From Prasinococcaceae sp. CCMP 1430 (Eukaryota; Prasinodermophyta; Palmophyllophyceae; Prasinococcales; Prasinococcaceae): 25,051 bases of DNA. How positions within the stretch are numbered: the first letter of the stretch is position 1; each line of letters begins with the position of its first letter. Under the pieces are notes generated by a model. The model did not search any database and was not told the origin of the DNA. It was given only the letters and a program-made list of their open reading frames with translations. The translations under genes were made by a program, and so were the position numbers. This document shows, in pieces, positions 2,540 to 25,051 of the stretch. The stretch covers positions 2,100-27,150 of the forward strand of contig RQSC01000267.1 of assembly GCA_013416795.1 (NCBI GenBank). The letters run 5' to 3'.

Positions 2540-3130
2540 GCACGTTCGAGTACCCTGTCTACAAAGACCGCTTCGCCTCACCACAAGACCTGCTCATGCC
2601 CCGCACCGGAGAGCGCGGCTACTGCATGGCCTGGTGTCGTCGCTTCGGGCTTCAGTCGACGCTCGTCTCTCCGGACGCCCCACATGCTCCTTCGTGCCAC
2701 TCTGCAGCAGGCATCAACGGCGCCCACACCACGGTCTGCACGTCGACTGCTGGCTGCCGCTATGCCCTCGCAAGCAGCACCAGCCACCCCCCGCCCTCCC
2801 CGGCGGCGCTCGGCTCGCATTCGCGGCCAGGCCTGCCACGGCGAGGGAGGGTGGGGCGACCTGCAGTATTGCTCGAGCCCTGCAGGGGCTTTGCCGAGAG
2901 GCCCAAGGGCCCGCTCCCCCGAGGGGGCGGGTCACGTCTCCCACGGCCCCCCAGGCTAGAGGGGAGGGGGTGACACAAGGAGTGCTGTGGAACGTCTCAA
3001 GTGTGGCCCCTAGCGAGAGGGGCCCCGATCTTACCGTTGCGGCGCGTGCGCGCAGCGCACGCGCGCGTACGCGCAAGATTCCGCTCGGGGAACCGCGCGG
3101 CGGATAAGATCGCCTGAACCCTGCCTGTGT
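2540..3130. other. No confident gene; possible gene relic and GC-rich hairpins
   Basis: Several short reading frames overlap on both strands but none has a recognisable motif. 2530-2690 could be a decayed exon (frame beginning MGRRTFEYPVYKD). A perfect 7-bp stem with a 6-base loop lies at 3005-3024 (GGCCCCT/AGGGGCC), and 3040-3075 is an alternating CG/GC palindromic stretch. It looks like subtelomeric-type filler. Confidence 0.4.
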
Positions 3131-3170
3131 ACCCTAACTAGGTTAGGGTTAGGGTTAGGGTTTAGGGTTT
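3131..3170 (+). repeat. Interstitial telomere-like tract (G-strand) with inverted junction
   Basis: 3141-3170 holds about three TTAGGG units followed by TTTAGGG units. Immediately before it, ACCCTAAC at 3131-3138 is the exact inverse of GTTAGGGT at 3142-3149 with a 3-base spacer, so the tract begins with a C-strand/G-strand junction. Together with the C-strand tract at 2431-2446 it brackets about 700 bp in the orientation of two chromosome ends. Confidence 0.8.
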
Positions 3171-3339
3171 GCGACATGTTTGTGCCTTTCACTCCCGGCT
3201 CATTGAAGCCACCGTCAAGGACCGCTGCAAGCGCTTCCTCGACGACTCCGCCAACTACTTCCTAGACACACGCGCGATACGCAACCTCGCGCTTGCGTCT
3301 TCCCGTAGTAGGGTTCCCGTAGCGAATGTTCGCACATGA
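3166..3339 (+). other. Short open frame, possible exon relic
   Basis: A frame without a start runs to a TGA at 3337-3339 and reads as a plausible charged protein segment (FHSRLIEATVKDRC, then KRFLDDSANYFLDT). It overlaps the second repeat copy at its 3' end. It may be a terminal exon or a relic of a gene broken by the repeats. I do not recognise the family. Confidence 0.25.
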
Positions 3340-3444: not shown

Positions 3445-6400
3445 TCATTCGCAATACTGGGCGACGCAACGAGTGGCAAAATTCTTGGTGTCCAGGGCGC
3501 AGATGCGCTTGTTGCCCTTCCGCACGTAGTGCCTGCCCTTACCGCAGGACAAATCGGTCCAGGCGTACGCCTTGTCGTAGCCGCATCCGGTGCGCGAAGT
3601 GATGGGGTGCTCATCAAGCGTCGGCAGACGCGCGCCCGCGTCGCCGCAGAACGCCTGCGCCTCCTCGAAGGAGCCCTTGAAGCACTCGCCATCGGGCTTG
3701 GACGCTGCGCACAGCTTGGCCACATCATCGAACCTCCACGCCTTCTGGTCGTCCTGCTGCTGGCAGCACACCCCGGCAGGGGAGGAGCCGTCGACCCCGT
3801 CGTCGCCGTCGGCCGGCGTGGTCTTCCCGCCCTCGTCGCCTTCGCACGTGGGCATGCAGCACCTCACACCGAACTTGCGCCCCGCCGCGGCGCACACAGA
3901 GGGCCCACCGTCGCCGCGGCGCGCGATGAACTTGTTGGCGCCGGCCTTGCCGGCCTTGCCGCAGGTCTCGTTAGTCCACACGAACTTCTTGTCGAGACCG
4001 CAGCCGGTGCCGATCGCCGCCGACACGAGCGCATCGGCCGAGCACAGCTCGGCGCCCTCGTCGGCGCAGATCTGCTCGGCGGCCGCCCAGCCCTTCGACT
4101 TGAAGCAGCGGTTGCCCTTCTTGAGCTTGGAGGCGCCGCACATGTCCCCCGACACTTTCCAGTCGGGCTGGTCGCGCTCGCAACACTGGCCTCTTTCGAG
4201 ACGCGTTGGCGTGGGCGTGGGCCTCGGCGTGGGCTTGTTGGTCGGTGACTTGGTCGGAGCGGTTGTGGGCGTAAGCGTAGGCCTTGGCGTGGGACTGGAG
4301 GTGGTGGGCGACTTCGTCGGGCTCTTCGTAGGCGAGTGCGTTGAGGTGGGGGACTCGGTGGGCTTGTACGTGGGCCGCTTGGTGGGGGCCTTTGTTGGCG
4401 GCGGCTGCACGGGCGCCTTGGTCGGCTGCTTGGTCGGCATGGGCGTGGGCTTGGGCGTGGGCTCGTCCGCGGCGGTGGGCGACTTGGTCGGCGACTTGGT
4501 GGGGCGGTCCTTGGGAGGCAGCGTGGGCGCCTTGGTGGGCGACGCCGTCGGGAGCGCTGGGCAGTGCGTGGGGCCAACTGGCTCGCCACACGAGATGTAG
4601 GACTTGCGCTCGCAGCCGGCGGGCTTGCAGAAGCACTCGGTGGGGTCAACAGGGCCCTTGCCCGGCGGACCGCCGCACTCGACCGTGGCGCCCTCGCGCT
4701 CCAGGCACGGCATGTCCACCTCAAAGAGCGCCGAGTTGTCCTCGAAGAGCACGAGCGCGTCAGGGGTGGCCAATTCGACAAGCGACTGCAGGTTGACGGC
4801 GTCGAGCGCGTGCTCCTCGGTGACCACGAAGACGCCGGCGTCGCACCGGTTCAGGTTGAACTCGTGCCTGCCGCACGACGAGTGGCACGGGCTGACGCCC
4901 GAGCAGTCGCGGTGCGTCGGGCCCACGGCCTCGAGCTTGGGCGTCACGATGGTGTAGAGCATGGTGGCGTTGCGCACCACGAAACCCTCGCCATTCTCGC
5001 TGCAGACGCAGCGGCCCTCCCACACCGGGCGCGGCAGGTAGTGCACGTGCTCGAGCGCGGGCAGGTAGAGGCAGGGCAGCACGGTGTTCACGATGCTCAG
5101 GTCGCCCGCGGTCGAGATGAGCGAGCTCAGGTCGAGGTCGGTCAGGCGGTAGTCGTTCTCGAAGGAGACGCTCGAGGAGGGGGGGTCCACACCCACCGGG
5201 TAGACGTGCTTGAGCGCGCCCAGGTTGACGGTGGTGAGCTCGGGGTTGTCCTCGATGTCGATCTTCGAGGTGAGCACGAGGCTGCCGAGCTGGATGGTAC
5301 GCAGCGCGTCGTTGTCCTCCACCTCGGTCTCGCCCTGGACGAAGACGAGCTTGGGCGCGCCGAAGTACATCAGGGCCATGTTGTCGTCCACCTCGAGCTC
5401 GCGGTCGATGGTGCCGGGGCCGAACTGCGAGCTGTACTCGCCGCCGCCGACCACGACGAGCTCGGGCAGGGCGAGGTACTCGAGGGCCTCGTTGTTGTCC
5501 ACCTCAATGGTGCCGGCCGTCACGAGGCTGCCCAGGTGCACGCGCTTCAGCATGGGCAGGTACTCGAGCTCGAGCTCGCCCAGCACGGCCTTGAGAGCGC
5601 TGAGGTCGATCTCCTCGATGAACGCCTGCTGCCTCTCCCTGTCCTCGCCGCTGAGTTGGTCGATGCCGGCCTTCTCGCCGCCCACCACGACGAGCGCCGA
5701 CAGGTCGAGCACGGGGCCCAGCAGGCGCAGGTCCTCGATGTACAGGTTGTCGCGCACGGCGCGCAGGCCGCTGAGGTCGAAGGACGCGAGGAGCATGTCC
5801 GGGTTGTCGCACGGCGCGTGCTCGGTGACGTCTTCGTTGTCGTCGCTGCAACGGGCGGCGGCGCGGGTCAGCGCATGTCCCGGCAGCGCACCAAGCAAGG
5901 TCCGCGCGCAGCGCGCGCGAGCGGGCGCGCCGCGCACCAGTTCCACAGCCGCAGGTCGTCGCCGACGTAGACGAGGTCGCGCGCGGTGAACTCCACGAGG
6001 TTGTACGAGCCGATCACGTGGAAGTCCTCGACGGTCCCTGCAGGTGAGGCAGGTGGATGGAGCCCACGTCGTCCTCCGCCTTGGACTCGATGTCGTAGGC
6101 CACCTTGCAGCCCGCCTCGGCCACCTCGTGCAGCGTGTACTCGGGTTCGCAGTCATCGGAGTCGTCGCAGGCCTCGCGCAGCTTCTCGTAGTAGCAGAAG
6201 ACGTCGTCCGAGCCGATGCCCGCGCCGCACGGCTGCGTGGGCGGCAGGCACTGCGAGGACACGGCGTTGTCAAAGTTGTTGCACTCGCACTGCGTGATGT
6301 CCGCGCAGTCGAGCGAGGCGACCTCCTCGAGGCACTGCAGCTCCACGATGGGCAAGTTCTTGTTGCCCACGATGTCCACGTGGCCGGTCACGTTGCGCAG

Positions 6401-8068
6401 CGCGGTCAGGTCGAGCAGCTCCATGCGGTAGTTGTCGGTGACGGTGACGAAGGCCGGCGTGGTGTAGTAGTACTCGTAGTCGAAGATCTCCTCGAGGTGC
6501 GGCATGACGCTCATCACCAGCTGGTAGTTCTTGGAGACCATGAGGCCGCCGTAGATGACCTCCAGGCGCGGCGCGAAGACGAAGCGCAGCGCGTCGTTGT
6601 AGGTGATCACCACGTTGCCCCACACGCGCCAAAGGGCGTCGAAGTTCAGCGCGAGCAGCGCCGGGTTGGCGCTCACGTCGATCGAGCCGCCGACGGACAC
6701 GACGTCGCGCAGCACGACCGTCGCCAGCTGGTCGTTCTCCCTGATCTCGATGGTGGGCAGGTCCATGTCCTCGTCGCGGTAGCTGCAGCTCGAGTGCTCG
6801 AAGCACGCGCCGCACCCGAGGTCGGTCGCCCAGTGGCACAGGTCGGCGTACTCCGGGTTGAAGCCCTCGCGCGTGCACGAGCCGTGCTCGGAGTCGTCGT
6901 AGCACGTCTGCGCGCCGGCGAGCCAACACAGGCCGCACACGACGGCGGGCGGGTGGGCGGCGAGCAGCGACTCGGCGCCGGCGTAGACGAGGTGCGGGTT
7001 GTGCTCGACGCTGAGACGGCCGAGCAGGAAGAGCATCTCGCGCAGGTCGAGCGCAGCCAAGCGCGCGTTGTCGCGCACGATGATGTCGTCGGTCACCACG
7101 AGCACATTGGAGAGCGTCGCCAGCGAGGCGAGCGCGCGGTTGGTCTCGAAGAGGATGTCGCCGTTCACGGCGCGCAGCGAGGAGAGGTCCACGGCCTCGA
7201 GCGCGTCGGTGCGCACGACCTCGAGGTCGCCGTTGACGAAGAGGAGCTTGCCCATGTCCACGACTGGGCCGAGGAGCGGGTGCTTGGCAATGCGCAGGCC
7301 GCCGGGGGCCTTGAGCCTGTAGGGCGCCTTGCCGAAGGTGTCGGGGTCCACCACGGCAGCGCCGCGGTAGTCGATGGCCTCGGCGGTGATGTTGCCCAGC
7401 GCCTCGCGCCACGCGGCGAGGAAGTCGTCAGTGGAGTCGGCGTCGGGCGCGAAGGCGTCGGGGAGGGAGGTCACCGGCGTCGGGATGGCCTCGACGACGT
7501 CGGCGCCCATCGACATGCTGAGGCCGCCGCCCTCGCCGCCCGACAGCCACCAGTCGTCCGCGCCGTACGGGCAGTTGTAGCCGAACACTGCCCTCAGCGA
7601 GCGCAGGTCGAGGTGCTCGAGCGCGCTGGAGCCGTCGTGGCGGCCCTCGATCTCGACCTTGCCCTCGACGGTCCGGAGACCTGAGAGGTCGATCCCCGTC
7701 ACGTGGGTGGTGGACACCTCGAGGTTGGCGTACGTCCCGCAGGGCGCGCGGTTGGGGGTCACGATGGAGCGCAGCTTTGACGCGTCGATGAAGCCCTCGT
7801 CCTTCTTGCCGATGCCCGCGCTGGTCACGTTGCCGTAGACGATCGTGCAGCCACGGTGCGCGACCTCGGCCAGCGTGTAGCCCTCCGGAGTAGGCGGGGC
7901 GTTACAGACGACGCGGTCGCGCGGCGGCAGCGGGCCAAAGTCGCCAGTGATGGCGTCCTGCGGCGCGTCCTCGGCGCGCGCAAGGCCGGCGCCGGCCACA
8001 GCGGCGAGCGCGGCCGCCGTCGCGAGGCGCGAGGTGCGCCCGCGCCCGCGGTGGGGCGGCGCGCTCAT
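3445..8068 (-). CDS. Gene A: secreted L-domain-like / Pro-Thr linker / Cys-rich protein, frameshifted
   Basis: Read leftward from ATG at 8068-8066 to TGA at 3447-3445. A signal peptide (Ala/Leu-rich core ending ALARAED) is followed by about 1,000 residues of repeating 'L-x-x-L-x-V-x-G-x-L-x-I-x-x-N' strands like receptor L-domain / ECM33-type solenoids. Next is a Pro-Thr linker (about 4560-4200) and two Cys-rich modules (about 4190-3850 and 3775-3448) sharing 'GTGCG-x-D-x-x-x-x-WT...CGK...RC'; from memory these resemble an algal domain catalogued as DUF7495, unchecked. An intron at 5937-5846 (GTGCGC...TTGCAG, 92 bp) is supported by gene B. Against gene B one base is missing near 6036, so the reading frame breaks there: young pseudogene or sequencing error. 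With that base the protein would be about 1510 residues. Likely surface or wall protein; ligand unknown. Confidence 0.8.
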
Positions 8069-8562
8069 GGCGGCGGGCGCAACGAACCTCGCGAGTACGG
8101 GTTGAGATGGATGCACGCGTGGGGGGCGAGGAGGGGGAAGTGCAGGAGGCGCACGGTGCGTCACCGTGCGCGGGTGTGCCACCGCGCCGCGCTTTGCGCG
8201 CTCCGCATCCGACGCGCGCGCGCGCGCGCGCAGCCGGCAGCGCCACCGCTCATCCCGCCATTGCTGACGATGATGCACGGCGCCACACACGACGCGGCCG
8301 CACGCGCCTCACGTCGGAGCACCAGCACCAGGGCAGTCGCCCAGCCTGCTACGCGCGCGCGCGCGCAGCCCGCCGCGCGGCCGCAGGCGGCGCGGGACGG
8401 CAGCACAGGACGGCGCGCGGGCGCGGCCTCGGGGGGCGGGGGCTGCGAGCGCCGGCACGGGAGGGAGGTGGAGAAAGGCGGGGTGGGACGGGGCGTGGCA
8501 AGAGCGAGCGAGCGTGTGTGTGTGTGTGTGTGCGTGCGTGCGTGTGTGTGTGACACGGCGCG
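8069..8562. promoter_or_regulatory. Divergent intergenic region with GT tract
   Basis: Lies between the start of gene A (leftward) and the 8563 gene (rightward), so it should hold both promoters. It contains alternating CG runs near 8216-8232 and 8351-8365 and a GT/GC-rich alternating tract at 8513-8552 directly before the ATG at 8563. I see no clear TATA box. Confidence 0.4.
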
Positions 8563-10750: not shown

Positions 10751-13700
10751 CTAGCAGTACTCGGCGACGCAGCGAGCGCCGAAGGACTTGCTGTCGACCA
10801 CGCACTTGCGCTTGCCGTTCTTGATGGCGATGTGCTTGCCCTTGCCGCAGGACTCGGTCGTCCACACGAGGAGCTTGTCGAGGCCGCAGCCGGTCCTGAT
10901 CGTGACGCCGTACTCCTCCGGAGCGGGGAGGCGCGCGCCCGCGTCGCCGCAGAACGCCCGCGCCTCCTCGAAGGAGCCCTTGAAGCACTCGCCGTCGGGC
11001 TTCGACGCAGCGCACAGCTTGGCCTCGTCGTCGAACTTCCACGCCTTCTTGTCGTCCTGCTGCTGGCAGCACACCCCGGAGGAGGGGGAGCCGTCGTCGC
11101 CGTCGGCCGGCCCGGTCTGCCCGCCCTCGTCGCCGTCGCACGTGGGCATGCAGCACCGCACGCCGAACTTGCGCCCCGCCGCGGCGCACACGGAGGGCCC
11201 GCCGTCGCCGCGGCGCGCGATGAACTTGTTGGCGCCGGCCTTGCCGCAGGTCTCGTTGGTCCACACGAACTTCTTGTCGAGGCCGCAGCCGGTGCCGATC
11301 GCCGCCGACACGAGCGCGTCGGCCGAGCACAGCTCGGCGCCCTCGTCGGCGCAGATCTGCGCGGCGGCCGTCCAGCCCTTCGACTTGAAGCAGCGGTCGC
11401 CCTTCTTGAGCTTGGAGGCGCCGCACATGTTCCCCGACACCTTCCAGTCGGGCTGGTCGCGCTCGCAGCACTGGCCCCTTTCGAAGCGCGTGGGCGCGGG
11501 CGTGGGCCTCGGCGTGGGCTTGTTGGTCGGCGACTTGGTCGGCGCGTACGTGGGCGCGGGCGTGGGCCTGGGGGTGGGCCTGGCCGTGGTGGGCGACTTC
11601 GTCGGGCTCTTCGTGGGCGAGTGCGTAGAGGTGGGGGACTTGGTGGGCTTGTACGTGGGCCGCTTGGTGGGGGCCTTGGTCGGCGGCGGCACGTGCCCGC
11701 GGAACCAGCCGACGAACCAGCCGTACCCGCACCCGAACCCGCACCCGAGCAGGCGCCGCCACCCGCTGAACCAGCCGCTGAACCACCCCGCCTCCTTGGG
11801 AGGCAGCGTGGGCGCCTTGGTGGGCGACGCCGTCGGGAGCGCCGGGCAGTGCGTCGGGCCCACCGCATCGCCGCACGAGAAGTACGACTTGCGCTCGCAG
11901 CCGGCGGGCTTGCAGAAGCACTCGGTGGGGTCAACAGGGCCCTTGCCCGGCGGACCGCCGCACTCGACCGTGGCGCCCTCGCGCTCCAGGCACGGCATGT
12001 CCACCTCAAAGAGCGCCGAGTTGTCCTCGAAGAGCACGAGCGCGTGGGGGGTGGCCAGCTCGACGAGCGACTGCATGTTGACGGCGTCGAGCGCGTGCTC
12101 CTCGGTGACCACGAAGACGCCGGCGTCGCACCGGTTCAGGTTGAACTCGTGCCTGCCGCACGACGAGTGGCACGGGCTGACGCCCGAGCAGTCGCGGTGC
12201 GTCGGGCCCACGGCCTCGAGCTTGGGCGTCACGATGGTGTAGAGCATGGTGGCGTTGCGCACCACGAAACCCTCGCCGTTCTCGCTGCAGACGCAGCGGC
12301 CCTCCCACGCCGGGCGCGGCAGGTAGTGCACGTGCTCGAGCGCGGGCAGGTAGAGGCAGGGCAGCACGGTGTTCACGATGCTCAGGTCGCCCGCGGTCGA
12401 GATGAGCGAGCTCAGGTCGAGGTCGGTCAGGCGGTAGTCGTTCTCGAAGGAGACGCTCGAGGAGGGGGGGTCCACACCCACCGGGTAGACGTGCTTGAGC
12501 GCGCCCAGGTTGACGGTGGTGAGCTCGGGGTTGTCCTCGATGTCGATCTTCGAGGTGAGCACGAGGCTGCCGAGCTGGATGGTGCGCAGCGCGTCGTTGT
12601 CCTCCACCTCGGTCTCGCCCTGGACGAAGACGAGCTTGGGCGCGCCGAAGTACATCAGGGCCATGTTGTCGTCCACCTCGAGCTCGCGGTCGACAGTGTC
12701 GGGGCCGAACTGGACGTTGTACTCGCCGCCGCCGACCACGACGAGCTCGGGCAGGGCAAGGTACTCGAGGGCCTCGTTATCGTCCACCTCGACGGAGCCG
12801 GCCGTCACGAGGCTGCCCAGGTGCACGCGCTTCAGCATGGGCAGCCACTCAAGCTCGAGCTCGCCCAGCACGGCCTTGAGAGCGCTGAGGTCGATCTCCT
12901 CGATGAACGCCTGCTGCCTCTCCCTGTCCTCGCCGCTGAGTTGGTCGATGCCGGCCTTCTCGCCGCCCACCACGACGAGCGCCGACAGGTCGAGCACGGG
13001 GCCCAGCAGGCGCAGGTCCTCGATGTACAGGTTGTCGCGCACGGCGCGCAGGCCGCTGAGGTCGAAGGACGCGAGGAGCATGTCTGGGTTGTCACATGGC
13101 GCGTGTTCTGTGACAAATTCCTCGTCATCGCTGCAACACGTGGCGGCGCTGGTCAGTGCACGTCCAGAGCATGGCAAGGGCGTGCAGAGCGCGAGCGGCC
13201 GCGCCGCGCACCAGTTCCACAGCCGCAGGTCGTCGCCGACGTAGACGAGGTCGCGCGCGGTGAACTCCACGAGGTTGTACGAGCCGATCACGTGGAAGTC
13301 CTCGACGGTCGCCTGCAGGTGAGGCAGGTGGATGGAGCCCACGTCGTCCTCCGCCTTGGACTCGATGTCGTAGGCCACCTTGCAGCCCGCCTCGGCCACC
13401 TCGTGCAGCGTGTACTCGGGTTCGCAGTCATCGGAGTCGTCGCAGGCCTCGCGCAGCTTCTCGTAGTAGCAGAAGACGTCGTCCGAGCCGATGCCCGCGC
13501 CGCACGGCTGCGTGGGCGGCAGGCACTGCGAGGACACGGCGTTGTCAAAGTTGTTGCACTCGCACTGCGTGATGTCCGCGCAGTCGAGCGAGGCGACCTC
13601 CTCGAGGCACTGCAGCTCCACGATGGGCAAGTTCTTGTTGCCCACGATGTCCACGTGGCCGGTCACGTTGCGCAGCGCGGTCAGGTCGAGCAGCTCCATG

Positions 13701-15346
13701 CGGTAGTTGTCGGTGACGGTGACGAAGGCCGGCGTGGTGTAGTAGTACTCGTAGTCGAAGATCTCCTCGAGGTGCGGCATGACGCTCATCACCAGCTGGT
13801 AGTTCTTGGAGACCATGAGGCCGCCGTAGATGACCTCCAGGCGCGGCGCGAAGACGAAGCGCAGCGCGTCGTTGTAGGTGATCACCACGTTGCCCCACAC
13901 GCGCCAAAGGGCGTCGAAGTTCAGCGCGAGCAGCGCCGGGTTGGCGCTCACGTCGATCGAGCCGCCGACGGACACGACGTCGCGCAGCACGACCGTCGCC
14001 AGCTGGTCGTTCTCCTTGATCTCAATGGTTGGCAGCTCCATGTCCTCGTCGCGGTAGCTGCAGCTCGAGTGCTCGAAGCACGCGCCGCACCCAAGGTCGG
14101 TCGCCCAGTGGCACAGGTCGGCGTACTCCGGGTCGAAGCCCTCGCGCGTGCACGAGCCGTGCTCGGAGTCGTCGTAGCACGTCTGCGCACCGGCGAGCCA
14201 GCACAGGCCGCACACGACGGCGGGCGGGTGGGCGGCGAGCAGCGACTCGGCGCCGGCGTAGACGAGGTGCGGGTTGTGCTCGACGCTGAGACGGCCGAGC
14301 AGGAAGAGCATCTCGCGCAGGTCGAGCGCAGCCAAGCGCGCGTTGTCGCGCACGATGATGTCGTCGGTCACCACGAGCACATTGGAGAGCGTCGCCAGCG
14401 AGGCGAGCGCGCGGTTGGTCTCGAAGAGGATGTCGCCGTTCACGGCGCGCAGCGAGGAGAGGTCCACGGCCTCGAGCGCGTCGGTGCGCACGACCTCGAG
14501 GTCGCCGTTGACGAAGAGGAGCTTGCCCATGTCCACGACTGGGCCGAGGAGCGGGTGCTTGGCAATGCGCAGGCCGCCGGGGGCCTTGAGCCTGTAGGGC
14601 GCCTTGCCGAAGGTGTCGGGGTCCACCACGGCAGCGCCGCGGTAGTCGATGGCCTCGGCGGTGATGTTGCCCAGCGCCTCGCGCCACGCGGCAAGGAAGT
14701 CGTCAGTGGAGTCGGCGTCGGGCGCGAAGGCATCGGGGAGGGAGGTCACCGGCGTCGGAATGGCCTCGACGTCGTCGGCTCCCATCGATACGCCCCCGCC
14801 CGATGTCGAGCCGAGCCACCAGTCCGGCGCGTCAGCGGGGCAGTTGTATCCGAACACGGCCCTGAGCGAGCGGAGGTCGAGGTGCTCCAACGCGCTTGAG
14901 CCGTCGTGGCGGCCCTCGATCTCGACCTTGCCCTCTACGGCCCTGAGCCCCGAGAGGTCGATGCCCGTCACGTTGGTGGTGGAGATCTCGAGGTTGGCGT
15001 ACGTCCCGCAAGGCGCGCGGTTGGGAGCCACGATGGAGCGCAGTTTTGACGCGTCGATGAAGCCCTCGTCTTTCTTGCCCGCGCCCGCGCTGGTGACGTT
15101 GCCGAAGACGACGGTGCAGCCACGGTGCGCCACCTCGGCAAGCGTGAAGCCCTCCGCGGTCGGCGGCGCATTGCAAACGACGCGGTCGCGCGGCGGAAGT
15201 GGCCCAAAGTCGGCGGTGACGGCGTCCTGTGGCGCGTCCTCGGCGCGGGCGATGCCAGCGCCAGCGCTGGCCACGGCAGCGAGCGCTGCCGCCGCCGCGA
15301 AACGCGAGGCGCCACCGCGCCCGCGGCGGCGATGCTGCGCGACCAT
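10751..15346 (-). CDS. Gene B: secreted L-domain-like / linker / Cys-rich protein, intact paralogue of gene A
   Basis: Read leftward from ATG at 15346-15344 (good GGCCATGG context) to TAG at 10753-10751; 1504 residues after removing an 81-bp intron at 13211-13131 (GTGCGC...TTGCAG). The intron position is shared with gene A. Since 81 is a multiple of three and lacks stops, the unspliced frame is also open. Architecture follows gene A: signal peptide ending GIARAED, leucine-rich L-domain-like repeats, Pro-Thr linker, two Cys-rich modules ending AEYC. It differs at 11691-11792, where a 34-residue Gly/Trp/Phe-rich segment replaces Pro-Thr sequence. Stretches matching gene A at about 6041-6738 are identical by eye, while the 5' end is clearly diverged. 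Likely cell-surface or extracellular protein; partner unknown. A GTG-started extension to 15628 is rejected. Confidence 0.85.
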   Translation of the reverse strand: MVAQHRRRGRGGASRFAAAAALAAVASAGAGIARAEDAPQDAVTADFGPLPPRDRVVCNAPPTAEGFTLAEVAHRGCTVVFGNVTSAGAGKKDEGFIDASKLRSIVAPNRAPCGTYANLEISTTNVTGIDLSGLRAVEGKVEIEGRHDGSSALEHLDLRSLRAVFGYNCPADAPDWWLGSTSGGGVSMGADDVEAIPTPVTSLPDAFAPDADSTDDFLAAWREALGNITAEAIDYRGAAVVDPDTFGKAPYRLKAPGGLRIAKHPLLGPVVDMGKLLFVNGDLEVVRTDALEAVDLSSLRAVNGDILFETNRALASLATLSNVLVVTDDIIVRDNARLAALDLREMLFLLGRLSVEHNPHLVYAGAESLLAAHPPAVVCGLCWLAGAQTCYDDSEHGSCTREGFDPEYADLCHWATDLGCGACFEHSSCSYRDEDMELPTIEIKENDQLATVVLRDVVSVGGSIDVSANPALLALNFDALWRVWGNVVITYNDALRFVFAPRLEVIYGGLMVSKNYQLVMSVMPHLEEIFDYEYYYTTPAFVTVTDNYRMELLDLTALRNVTGHVDIVGNKNLPIVELQCLEEVASLDCADITQCECNNFDNAVSSQCLPPTQPCGAGIGSDDVFCYYEKLREACDDSDDCEPEYTLHEVAEAGCKVAYDIESKAEDDVGSIHLPHLQATVEDFHVIGSYNLVEFTARDLVYVGDDLRLWNWCAARPLALCTPLPCSGRALTSAATCCSDDEEFVTEHAPCDNPDMLLASFDLSGLRAVRDNLYIEDLRLLGPVLDLSALVVVGGEKAGIDQLSGEDRERQQAFIEEIDLSALKAVLGELELEWLPMLKRVHLGSLVTAGSVEVDDNEALEYLALPELVVVGGGEYNVQFGPDTVDRELEVDDNMALMYFGAPKLVFVQGETEVEDNDALRTIQLGSLVLTSKIDIEDNPELTTVNLGALKHVYPVGVDPPSSSVSFENDYRLTDLDLSSLISTAGDLSIVNTVLPCLYLPALEHVHYLPRPAWEGRCVCSENGEGFVVRNATMLYTIVTPKLEAVGPTHRDCSGVSPCHSSCGRHEFNLNRCDAGVFVVTEEHALDAVNMQSLVELATPHALVLFEDNSALFEVDMPCLEREGATVECGGPPGKGPVDPTECFCKPAGCERKSYFSCGDAVGPTHCPALPTASPTKAPTLPPKEAGWFSGWFSGWRRLLGCGFGCGYGWFVGWFRGHVPPPTKAPTKRPTYKPTKSPTSTHSPTKSPTKSPTTARPTPRPTPAPTYAPTKSPTNKPTPRPTPAPTRFERGQCCERDQPDWKVSGNMCGASKLKKGDRCFKSKGWTAAAQICADEGAELCSADALVSAAIGTGCGLDKKFVWTNETCGKAGANKFIARRGDGGPSVCAAAGRKFGVRCCMPTCDGDEGGQTGPADGDDGSPSSGVCCQQQDDKKAWKFDDEAKLCAASKPDGECFKGSFEEARAFCGDAGARLPAPEEYGVTIRTGCGLDKLLVWTTESCGKGKHIAIKNGKRKCVVDSKSFGARCVAEYC
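11691..11792. other. 102-bp un-reversed complement of the gene A linker segment
   Basis: Compared base by base, 11691-11792 equals the complement of 4406-4507 in the same left-to-right order at all 102 positions, while flanking bases align normally between genes A and B. In protein, each codon of gene A is complemented: Pro-Thr becomes Gly-Trp or Gly-Cys, Lys becomes Phe, Ala-Ala-Asp-Glu becomes Arg-Arg-Leu-Leu. The plus strand switches from G-rich flanks to a C-rich block and back. Confidence 0.95.
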
Positions 15347-15357
15347 GGCCGCCGCGG

Positions 15358-15369
15358 CCAATAAATAGG
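15358..15369 (-). promoter_or_regulatory. TATA-like element upstream of gene B
   Basis: On the minus strand the sequence reads CCTATTTATTGG, ending about 12 bases before the gene B ATG. It stands out in otherwise GC-saturated DNA. If it is a core promoter the 5' UTR would be extremely short, so it may instead be an initiator or AT-rich leader element. Confidence 0.3.
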
Positions 15370-16320
15370 AACTGATCCGGTGGGGGGCTACAGGAGCGTC
15401 GAGGGGGGGTGGGGACGGCGTGTGCCGTGTGTGTGCGGTGTGGCGCTGCCGACCGCGCAGCGTGGCTCTGCGCACGGCACCGTCGCGCGCGGCCGCCACC
15501 ACGCATGCTTCATCGGTATGTTTGGCGCACGCGCACCCGCGCGTGCCGTGCGCAGCTGGAGCATGCCCCTCCCGGGACGCGGCGGTGGGGCGGGCGCGGC
15601 TCCTGATGCATGTCGCCCGCTTGCTCACGGGTGCGCGTCTGGCGCGCGCGCAGCCGGCACGCGTGCGCGCGGCCGCGCACGCGTGGCCGCGCGGCGCGGC
15701 CTTCGCCTGGCTGGTAGCCAGCCCTGAGCCCTCGTGTCAGCACCTCGCGCTGCATCGCCACGCGCATCTTTGCTTCTGCCGCACCCCGCCCCTGCTGCGG
15801 CTGTTGTCCCCCCCCACCCCCCTCCTCTGCTCCGCCCCTCGTCTGCGATGTGACAGCGCGTTTGCGCTCGGCCGCGCGCGCGCGCGCGCGGCCGCCGAGC
15901 CGGCGCGCGCGCCGACGCGCCCTGGTCGGATCGGACGCGCGATCGGAAAAACAGGCAGTGCGTTTGCCCTGGGACCCGCATCGCATTGCGAGTGATGTCC
16001 CCTTTTAGCGTTTCGTTCCGTCTGTTCTCCCGCACTCCATTCCGTTTCGAAAACGTCCGAAACGCGCACCAAACGCGAACGCGCCGCCGCCGCGTACGAT
16101 GGGAGCGTTTCAGCCCTCCGGAGGCGCTCGTACCATCGGTCGGACGGTGGTGTCTGTCTCTCCCCGCTCCCGTTCCCGATTTTTTTTTTTCTTCGTTTGC
16201 GCGGGCGGGCGACGGCTGCCGCGCGGGCCGCGGCCAAAGGGCCGCCCGCATCGAATGCGTGCGGGCCATCGCTCGGATCGAAGTTCGAACGCGACGCGCG
16301 CGCAACGGCACGCCGACCGG

Positions 16321-21627: not shown

Positions 21628-21628
21628 N
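21628..21628. other. Undetermined base (N)
   Basis: The only ambiguous base in the window. It lies 160 bases after the E2 exon and 120 bases before the lipase start, exactly where the missing E2 3' exons should begin, and may mark a collapsed or zero-length assembly gap. Confidence 0.95.
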
Positions 21629-23980: not shown

Positions 23981-25051
23981 TTATTTGTCCGGCTCGGTGG
24001 GCGACTCGGTGGGCGGGAAGACGGGGGTCTCGGTGGGCTCGCCGTCCTCGCCAGTTGGGGACTCGGTGGGCGGGAAGACGGGGGTCTCGGTGGGCTCGCC
24101 GTCCTCGCCAGTTGGGGACTCGGTGGGCGCGACGACGGGCGCTTCGGTGGGCTCGCCGTCCTCGCCAGTTGGGGACTCGGTGGGAGCTTCAACAGGAGCC
24201 TCGGTGGGCTCGCCGCTGGGAGACTCGGTAGGGACCACCTGGGGCGATGTCGTGACGCCCGACAAGCAGAAGTACTCGACAGAATCTGAATCCTCGCCCG
24301 CGCAGTCTGGAACGGCGAGTGAAAGCAACGGCAGAGCACCAGCGGACGGTTCGAAGGGCACAAGGCAGTGGGCACGAAGAGGCACTTGGTAGTCAGCGAC
24401 ACATGCCAAGCACATCAGACCACGCCATCAAATTGCCACACACAATCTTGCAGCGACACTCAATCGCAGGGCGGGCAGGCGTGGCAAGCTGGGCGAGCAA
24501 CGCGCGGGCAGTCACGCACTGTCGCAGCAGCAGGTGTTTGTCTCCAAGCAAATGTCGTCGCAGAAGCAGAGCGGATCGAAGAAGGGCGAGTCGGGGTCAC
24601 ACGCTGGGCAGTTGCCGTCACACAGCACAGCGTACGGGAACACTTCCGGGACGTCGGTGAACTCGCACGTGCCGAACGCCTGCGGGGCGGGAATGGGGCC
24701 CGGTGCAGCGGGGGCCTCTGCACGCGCGCGGTGTCGCGGGGCGCGCGAGGTTCATCAATGTCAGCGCAGCGACGACAAACGGTGGGCTGTTGAAAAGCCA
24801 AAAAAAAAGGCGCGAAAAAGGGCGCCGTTTCAAATTTTGGCAGGTCGGGGGAAGGGACAGTCGGTGGGCGGTCACACGCGCGCGCGCCGGCCGATGCGAC
24901 GACAGCACAGATCCAAGCTCGCGCTCCGACCACGCACCGGTCGGCGCGACGACGGGCGCTGCGGTGGGCGCGACGACGGGCGCTTCGGTGGGCGCGACGA
25001 CGGGCGCTTCGGTGGGCTCGCCGTCCTCGCCAGTTGGGGACTCGGTGGGCG
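23981..25051 (-). CDS. Gene C (3' part): Pro-Thr repeat / Cys-rich secreted-type protein, runs off window
   Basis: Read leftward, exons are >25051-24938, 24717-24520 and 24306-23981 (TAA stop). Introns 24937-24718 (GTGCGT...GTGCAG) and 24519-24307 (GTGCGT...TTCCAG) are both phase 1 and keep the frame. The first junction rebuilds '...APT-EAPAAP', continuing the repeat; the second joins 'TCCCD' to 'CAGEDSDS'. The middle exon encodes a Cys-rich segment with 11 Cys (for example 'CDGNCPACD', 'CFCDDIC'). The outer exons hold Pro-Thr repeats of the type ESPTGEDGEPTExPVxxPT. Such Pro-Thr linkers with Cys-rich modules are typical of extracellular algal proteins, as in genes A and B. The N-terminus lies beyond the window. 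The splice model rests on frame and motif continuity. Confidence 0.65.
24003..24230 (-). repeat. 57-bp coding minisatellite in gene C
   Basis: Tandem units start at 24003, 24060, 24117 and 24174, each 57 bp (19 residues). The first two are identical; the third differs over a short middle segment and the fourth is partly decayed. The same unit, joined to 24-bp APVVAPTE sub-repeats, reappears at 24945-25051 in the exon at the window edge. Confidence 0.9.

Follow-up and report, generated by a model that had tools for sequence, protein, structure and literature searches.

An exact unreversed complement of 102 bp within a Pro-Thr linker gene is probably an in-silico artefact of a draft assembly

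The window analysed here, a stretch of DNA of 25,051 nt that is identical letter for letter to the stored contig (G000:C74:2100-27150), carries a tandem pair of paralogous genes on the minus strand. Gene B (10751-15628, minus strand) is a 1625-aa open frame encoding a Receptor L domain (PF01030), a Pro-Thr linker, and Cys-rich C-terminal repeats. These repeats (CCQQ...WKFDD...CAASK...CFKGSFEEA...C; 10754-11500, minus strand) have no Pfam match. Gene A (3445-8290, minus strand), the tandem paralogue of gene B, matches the PT repeat family below threshold and is read as two open frames that overlap (3445-6273 and 6014-8290). The split lies near 6014-6273, where gene B is one open frame; the possible causes are an assembly error, an intron that went unrecognised, or an indel. 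Interstitial telomere-like repeats (TTAGGG x3, TTTAGGG) follow gene A closely on its downstream side, at 3130-3175. Elsewhere in the window, a single N at 21628, apparently a scaffold join, lies ~100 bp downstream of a ubiquitin-conjugating enzyme exon (PF00179, 21322-21519, plus strand), and 57-bp and 24-bp tandem repeats at 23998-24215 and 24938-25050 belong, on the minus strand, to another Pro-Thr-rich protein (PTESPTGEDGEPTEAPV).

Genes A and B align over ~4.4 kb with 93% identity outside the block described below. The alignment is a mosaic of identical tracts (704, 491, 274, 233, 201, and 160 bp) between diverged stretches, a pattern expected of recent conversion. Beside the block, the differences between A and B fall mostly at the third codon position (44 of 84 on the left and 31 of 57 on the right), indicating some constraint on the sequence that adjoins the block.

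In a letter-by-letter comparison, positions 11691-11792 in the linker of gene B proved to be, base for base, the unreversed complement of the ordinary Pro-Thr linker block of gene A at 4406-4507 (minus strand; coding strand PTKSPTKSPTAADEPTPKPTPMPTKQPTKAPVQ), with agreement at 102/102 positions. A sequence-only reading of the window had reported this exact relation, and the position-by-position recount that it had set as a refuting check revealed no mismatches; it had also described identical flanks in A and B on either side, which the alignment bears out. The edges of the 102-bp block are flush, with no N nearby. In direct orientation, A and B share the left flank GGCGGCGGC and, on the right, 50 identical bases beginning TCCTTGGGAGGC. 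This direct identity ends the complement match at both edges, so that it is not extendable either way. An exhaustive search of the 25,051 nt identified the block as by far the longest complement-only match, the runners-up being 16-18 bp long and mostly simple repeats; the same window held no other complement-only or reverse-only blocks beyond simple repeats and these 16-18 bp complement matches. At other registers, the best complement-only agreement between linker A and linker B was 62/102. Therefore, the repetitiveness of the linkers does not account for 102/102.

The block is the unreversed complement, and not the reverse complement, of its homologue at all 102 positions, so that the sequence-only reading was right to set an inversion aside. 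Nor does the block correspond to a donor in direct orientation, as gene conversion would give: its direct-orientation matches to the gene A block number 0/102, complementary bases never matching. A single operation, complementing without reversing, explains 102/102. Under a model of 5-mer composition derived from the sampled genome, the B block scores -13.3 and the A block +13.3, and the B block falls below all but 0.012% of the 25,538 windows scored; it is thus "backwards" by composition too.

When the complement is undone, A and B are identical over 161 bp (9 on the left, 102 in the block, and 50 on the right), a tract that is ordinary for a pair whose identical tracts reach 704 bp. The identity of the underlying block in A and B is explained by the conversion-like mosaic. 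The block contains 0 substitutions in 102 bp, versus ~5% divergence in the flanks, and in this zero decay there is no sign of time elapsed since the change. Two other origins were considered and rejected: a hairpin or secondary-structure cause, since single-strand folding around the block does not exceed that of shuffled sequences (z 0.59), and, by reasoning, a contig overlap of 102 bp set by the k-mer size of an assembler, since the A/B variant sites place no overlap at 11691-11792.

As read in gene B, the block (AGWFSGWFSGWRRLLGCGFGCGYGWFVGWFRGHV) gives a peptide that is rich in Trp, Phe, Gly, and Cys and foreign to the Pro-Thr linker. The sequence-only reading had stressed that the replacement keeps the frame over 34 codons. 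This is true solely by virtue of the unchanged length; the block is not codon-aligned, its edges in minus-strand gene B falling on the third base of a codon (11792) and the second base of another (11691). After in-place complementing, 96% of 102-bp stretches of the Pro-Thr linker are stop-free, versus 37% elsewhere in gene B. Because an equal-length swap always keeps the downstream frame, and because complemented Pro, Thr, Lys, and Ser codons are rarely stops, the surviving frame carries little if any weight as evidence for a real feature.

A whole-genome search with the gene B region identified a third locus, C39:63714-63903, which is 98.9% identical to the right flank of the block (11793-11982). 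In a three-way alignment over these 190 bp, the C39 piece carries the B base at 9/9 sites that are diagnostic for A versus B, with two private base differences. Adjoining it, the final 55 bases of the block (the right-hand 55 bp, plus strand) are present in ordinary orientation and are identical to gene A; to the left of them, the C39 sequence turns unrelated. The whole B-type piece thus measures ~245 bp (C39:~63659-63903), and on the right it terminates at a single N (C39:63904). The B bases at 9/9 sites together with the ordinary 55 bp indicate that ordinary Pro-Thr sequence is on record for a B-type copy. The piece has the look of a contig end that strayed or was misplaced, derived from the B locus or at least from a closely similar B-type copy. 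Its overlap with the block is limited to the final 55 bp of the 102, and it may represent a third paralogue; the ordinary sequence would then be demonstrated for a B-type relative and not for B itself. With this qualification, the assembly does contain the same copy in ordinary form, for the right part of the block only.

The genome assembly, a draft with gaps, comprises 24.5 Mb in 145 contigs, with a G+C content of ~69% in the sampled stretches, and its dozen or more (at least 12) strong matches to the chlorophyll a/b-binding family indicate that it comes from a photosynthetic eukaryote. Single Ns recur across the sampled contigs, the two sides of each being without overlap, and in this draft a single N denotes a scaffold join. 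Beside the Ns at C72:522159 and C72:523611, sequence is duplicated at ~100% in other contigs; the C72 pieces next to them (L018:1127-2164 and 3608-4026) recur on C75 and C109. The 1.45-kb piece between these two Ns is a repeat, with 84-86% identity to several other contigs.

The sequence-only reading had proposed aligning the whole genome against its own unreversed complement. This comparison was carried out, by complement-only BLAST and exact-seed searches, on ~180 kb of non-N sequence out of the 24.5 Mb, and revealed no further unreversed-complement block. The complement-only matches in this sample were the 11691-11792 block, its C39 match, weaker matches to other Pro-Thr genes, and a few weak ones of ~40 bp. 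The sample is <1% of the genome, with only blocks that have an ordinary duplicate being detectable, and a systematic software fault is still compatible with it. A phage collection gave no match. In a k-mer scan for "backwards" sequence, one other outlier was as strong as the block, at C72:~523860-523960. This CTAG-rich stretch (C72:523847-523940) has an identical copy on C109, which offers no ordinary version for comparison, and it is not claimed as a second complement block.

These results suggest that the block is an in-silico artefact and not a biological feature, with a probability of roughly 0.95, and that an ordinary Pro-Thr block identical to that of A is most likely what the B locus really contains. 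The 102 letters of B would have been complemented without reversal during assembly, scaffolding, gap-filling, flipping, or editing; equivalently, in a record on the other strand, the letters would have been reversed without complementing. In one possible route, a lower-case piece on a minus-strand scaffold would meet a reverse-complement routine whose letter table holds capitals only. The whole scaffold would then be reversed, with the lower-case piece left uncomplemented, and the result on the final strand would be a flush, equal-length, complement-only block, as seen. Another possible route would be a reverse call of the kind that has no effect in certain program contexts. Because undoing the complement gives the ordinary 161-bp tract shared by A and B, complementing B's own letters in place would suffice, and no copying from A would be needed. 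The sequence-only reading had named sequence handling or a deliberate edit as the likeliest cause, and this judgement is supported both by the ordinary-orientation B-type piece beside a single-N join in the same assembly and by the finding of nothing comparable in the ~180 kb sampled. Counted against the artefact are the position of the block, which touches neither an N nor a visible join, and the lack, within the sampled ~180 kb, of a second example that would prove a systematic software fault.

Within the probability given to an artefact, a special case is that the 102 letters were edited deliberately (as a watermark, a test item, or a manual slip) rather than altered by an automatic error, a possibility that we hold tentatively. 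We know of no common assembly tool that complements a block in place, and a lone instance with flush edges and no adjoining gap would suit such an edit. Conversely, the stored contig and the window carry the block identically, so that its origin is not confined to the window, and edges lying off the codon boundaries give no sign of design. In the letters, the trace of a software slip would not differ from that of a deliberate edit, and the sequence alone does not separate the two. A real change in the DNA is very improbable; it would require parallel-orientation copying of a 102-bp tract, with gene A or B's own strand as template, either in the cell or during amplification before sequencing. 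Whereas the exactness and equal length of the block and the recombination of the gene pair, reflected in its mosaic identity tracts, would accord with such copying, established polymerases and recombinases work on antiparallel strands, and to our knowledge no established polymerase or repair pathway copies DNA in parallel orientation. The single strand at the block shows no unusual folding, and the presence on C39 of a B-type piece with an ordinary block makes unlikely the unprecedented biology that the sequence-only reading had envisaged should raw reads confirm the block. The only contrary claim to antiparallel copying that was found is an in-vitro "parallel DNA PCR", in which Taq was reported in one paper to extend a parallel-annealed primer on a single-stranded template (PMC4304224); this claim refers to purpose-designed primers and a synthetic template of 120 nt in a tube, would leave a block inside a genome unexplained, and is hard to square with the ordinary B-type copy on C39.

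That ordinary inversions or template switches, acting in a chain, happened to end in an unreversed complement has scarcely any probability. Each such event yields the reverse complement, and reversing the order over 102 bases of imperfect repeat would need events that act nearly base by base; no intermediate scar is seen, the unreversed complement running along the full length. Inversions and quasi-palindrome template switches are themselves common, real mechanisms, which is what speaks for the chain. Mere resemblance of two low-complexity Pro-Thr repeats to each other's complement is the least probable of all and may be neglected. The linkers are repetitive and G+C-rich, and their off-register complement agreement is considerable, but a match at every position between imperfect repeats, at the exact syntenic position and with a sharp switch at both edges, refutes chance.

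If the block were real, the rule of antiparallel DNA copying would be overturned. As an artefact, it is still of some importance, because it shows that strand errors at the level of letters can be present in a draft assembly, leave a frame open, and thereby escape notice in gene prediction; here, the predicted receptor-like protein contains a Trp/Phe/Cys-rich segment that is false. A complement-only self-comparison is thus a cheap check of assembly quality.

In a literature search, the phrase "complemented but not reversed" was not found, and "reversed but not complemented" was found in one paper, on human regulatory elements by its title and abstract (PMC8920891). Among known systems, an inversion or a quasi-palindrome template switch resembles the block in being an equal-length replacement within homologous flanks, whereas its product is the reverse complement and the order of the block is unreversed. 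Gene conversion of tandem paralogues accounts for a mosaic with long identical tracts such as that of A and B; unlike what is seen in the block, it copies the direct sequence and never the complement. Parallel-stranded DNA, and the claimed parallel DNA PCR, would yield an unreversed complement as product, but the latter is an in-vitro reaction on a single-stranded synthetic template, with no cellular counterpart and no support at the gene B locus. Strand-handling errors in assemblies and databases usually hit a whole record or a contig end, whereas the block is an internal 102 bp without an adjoining N. In other respects they match it: a complement without reversal, equal length, flush edges, no decay, and an ordinary copy recorded elsewhere in the same assembly.
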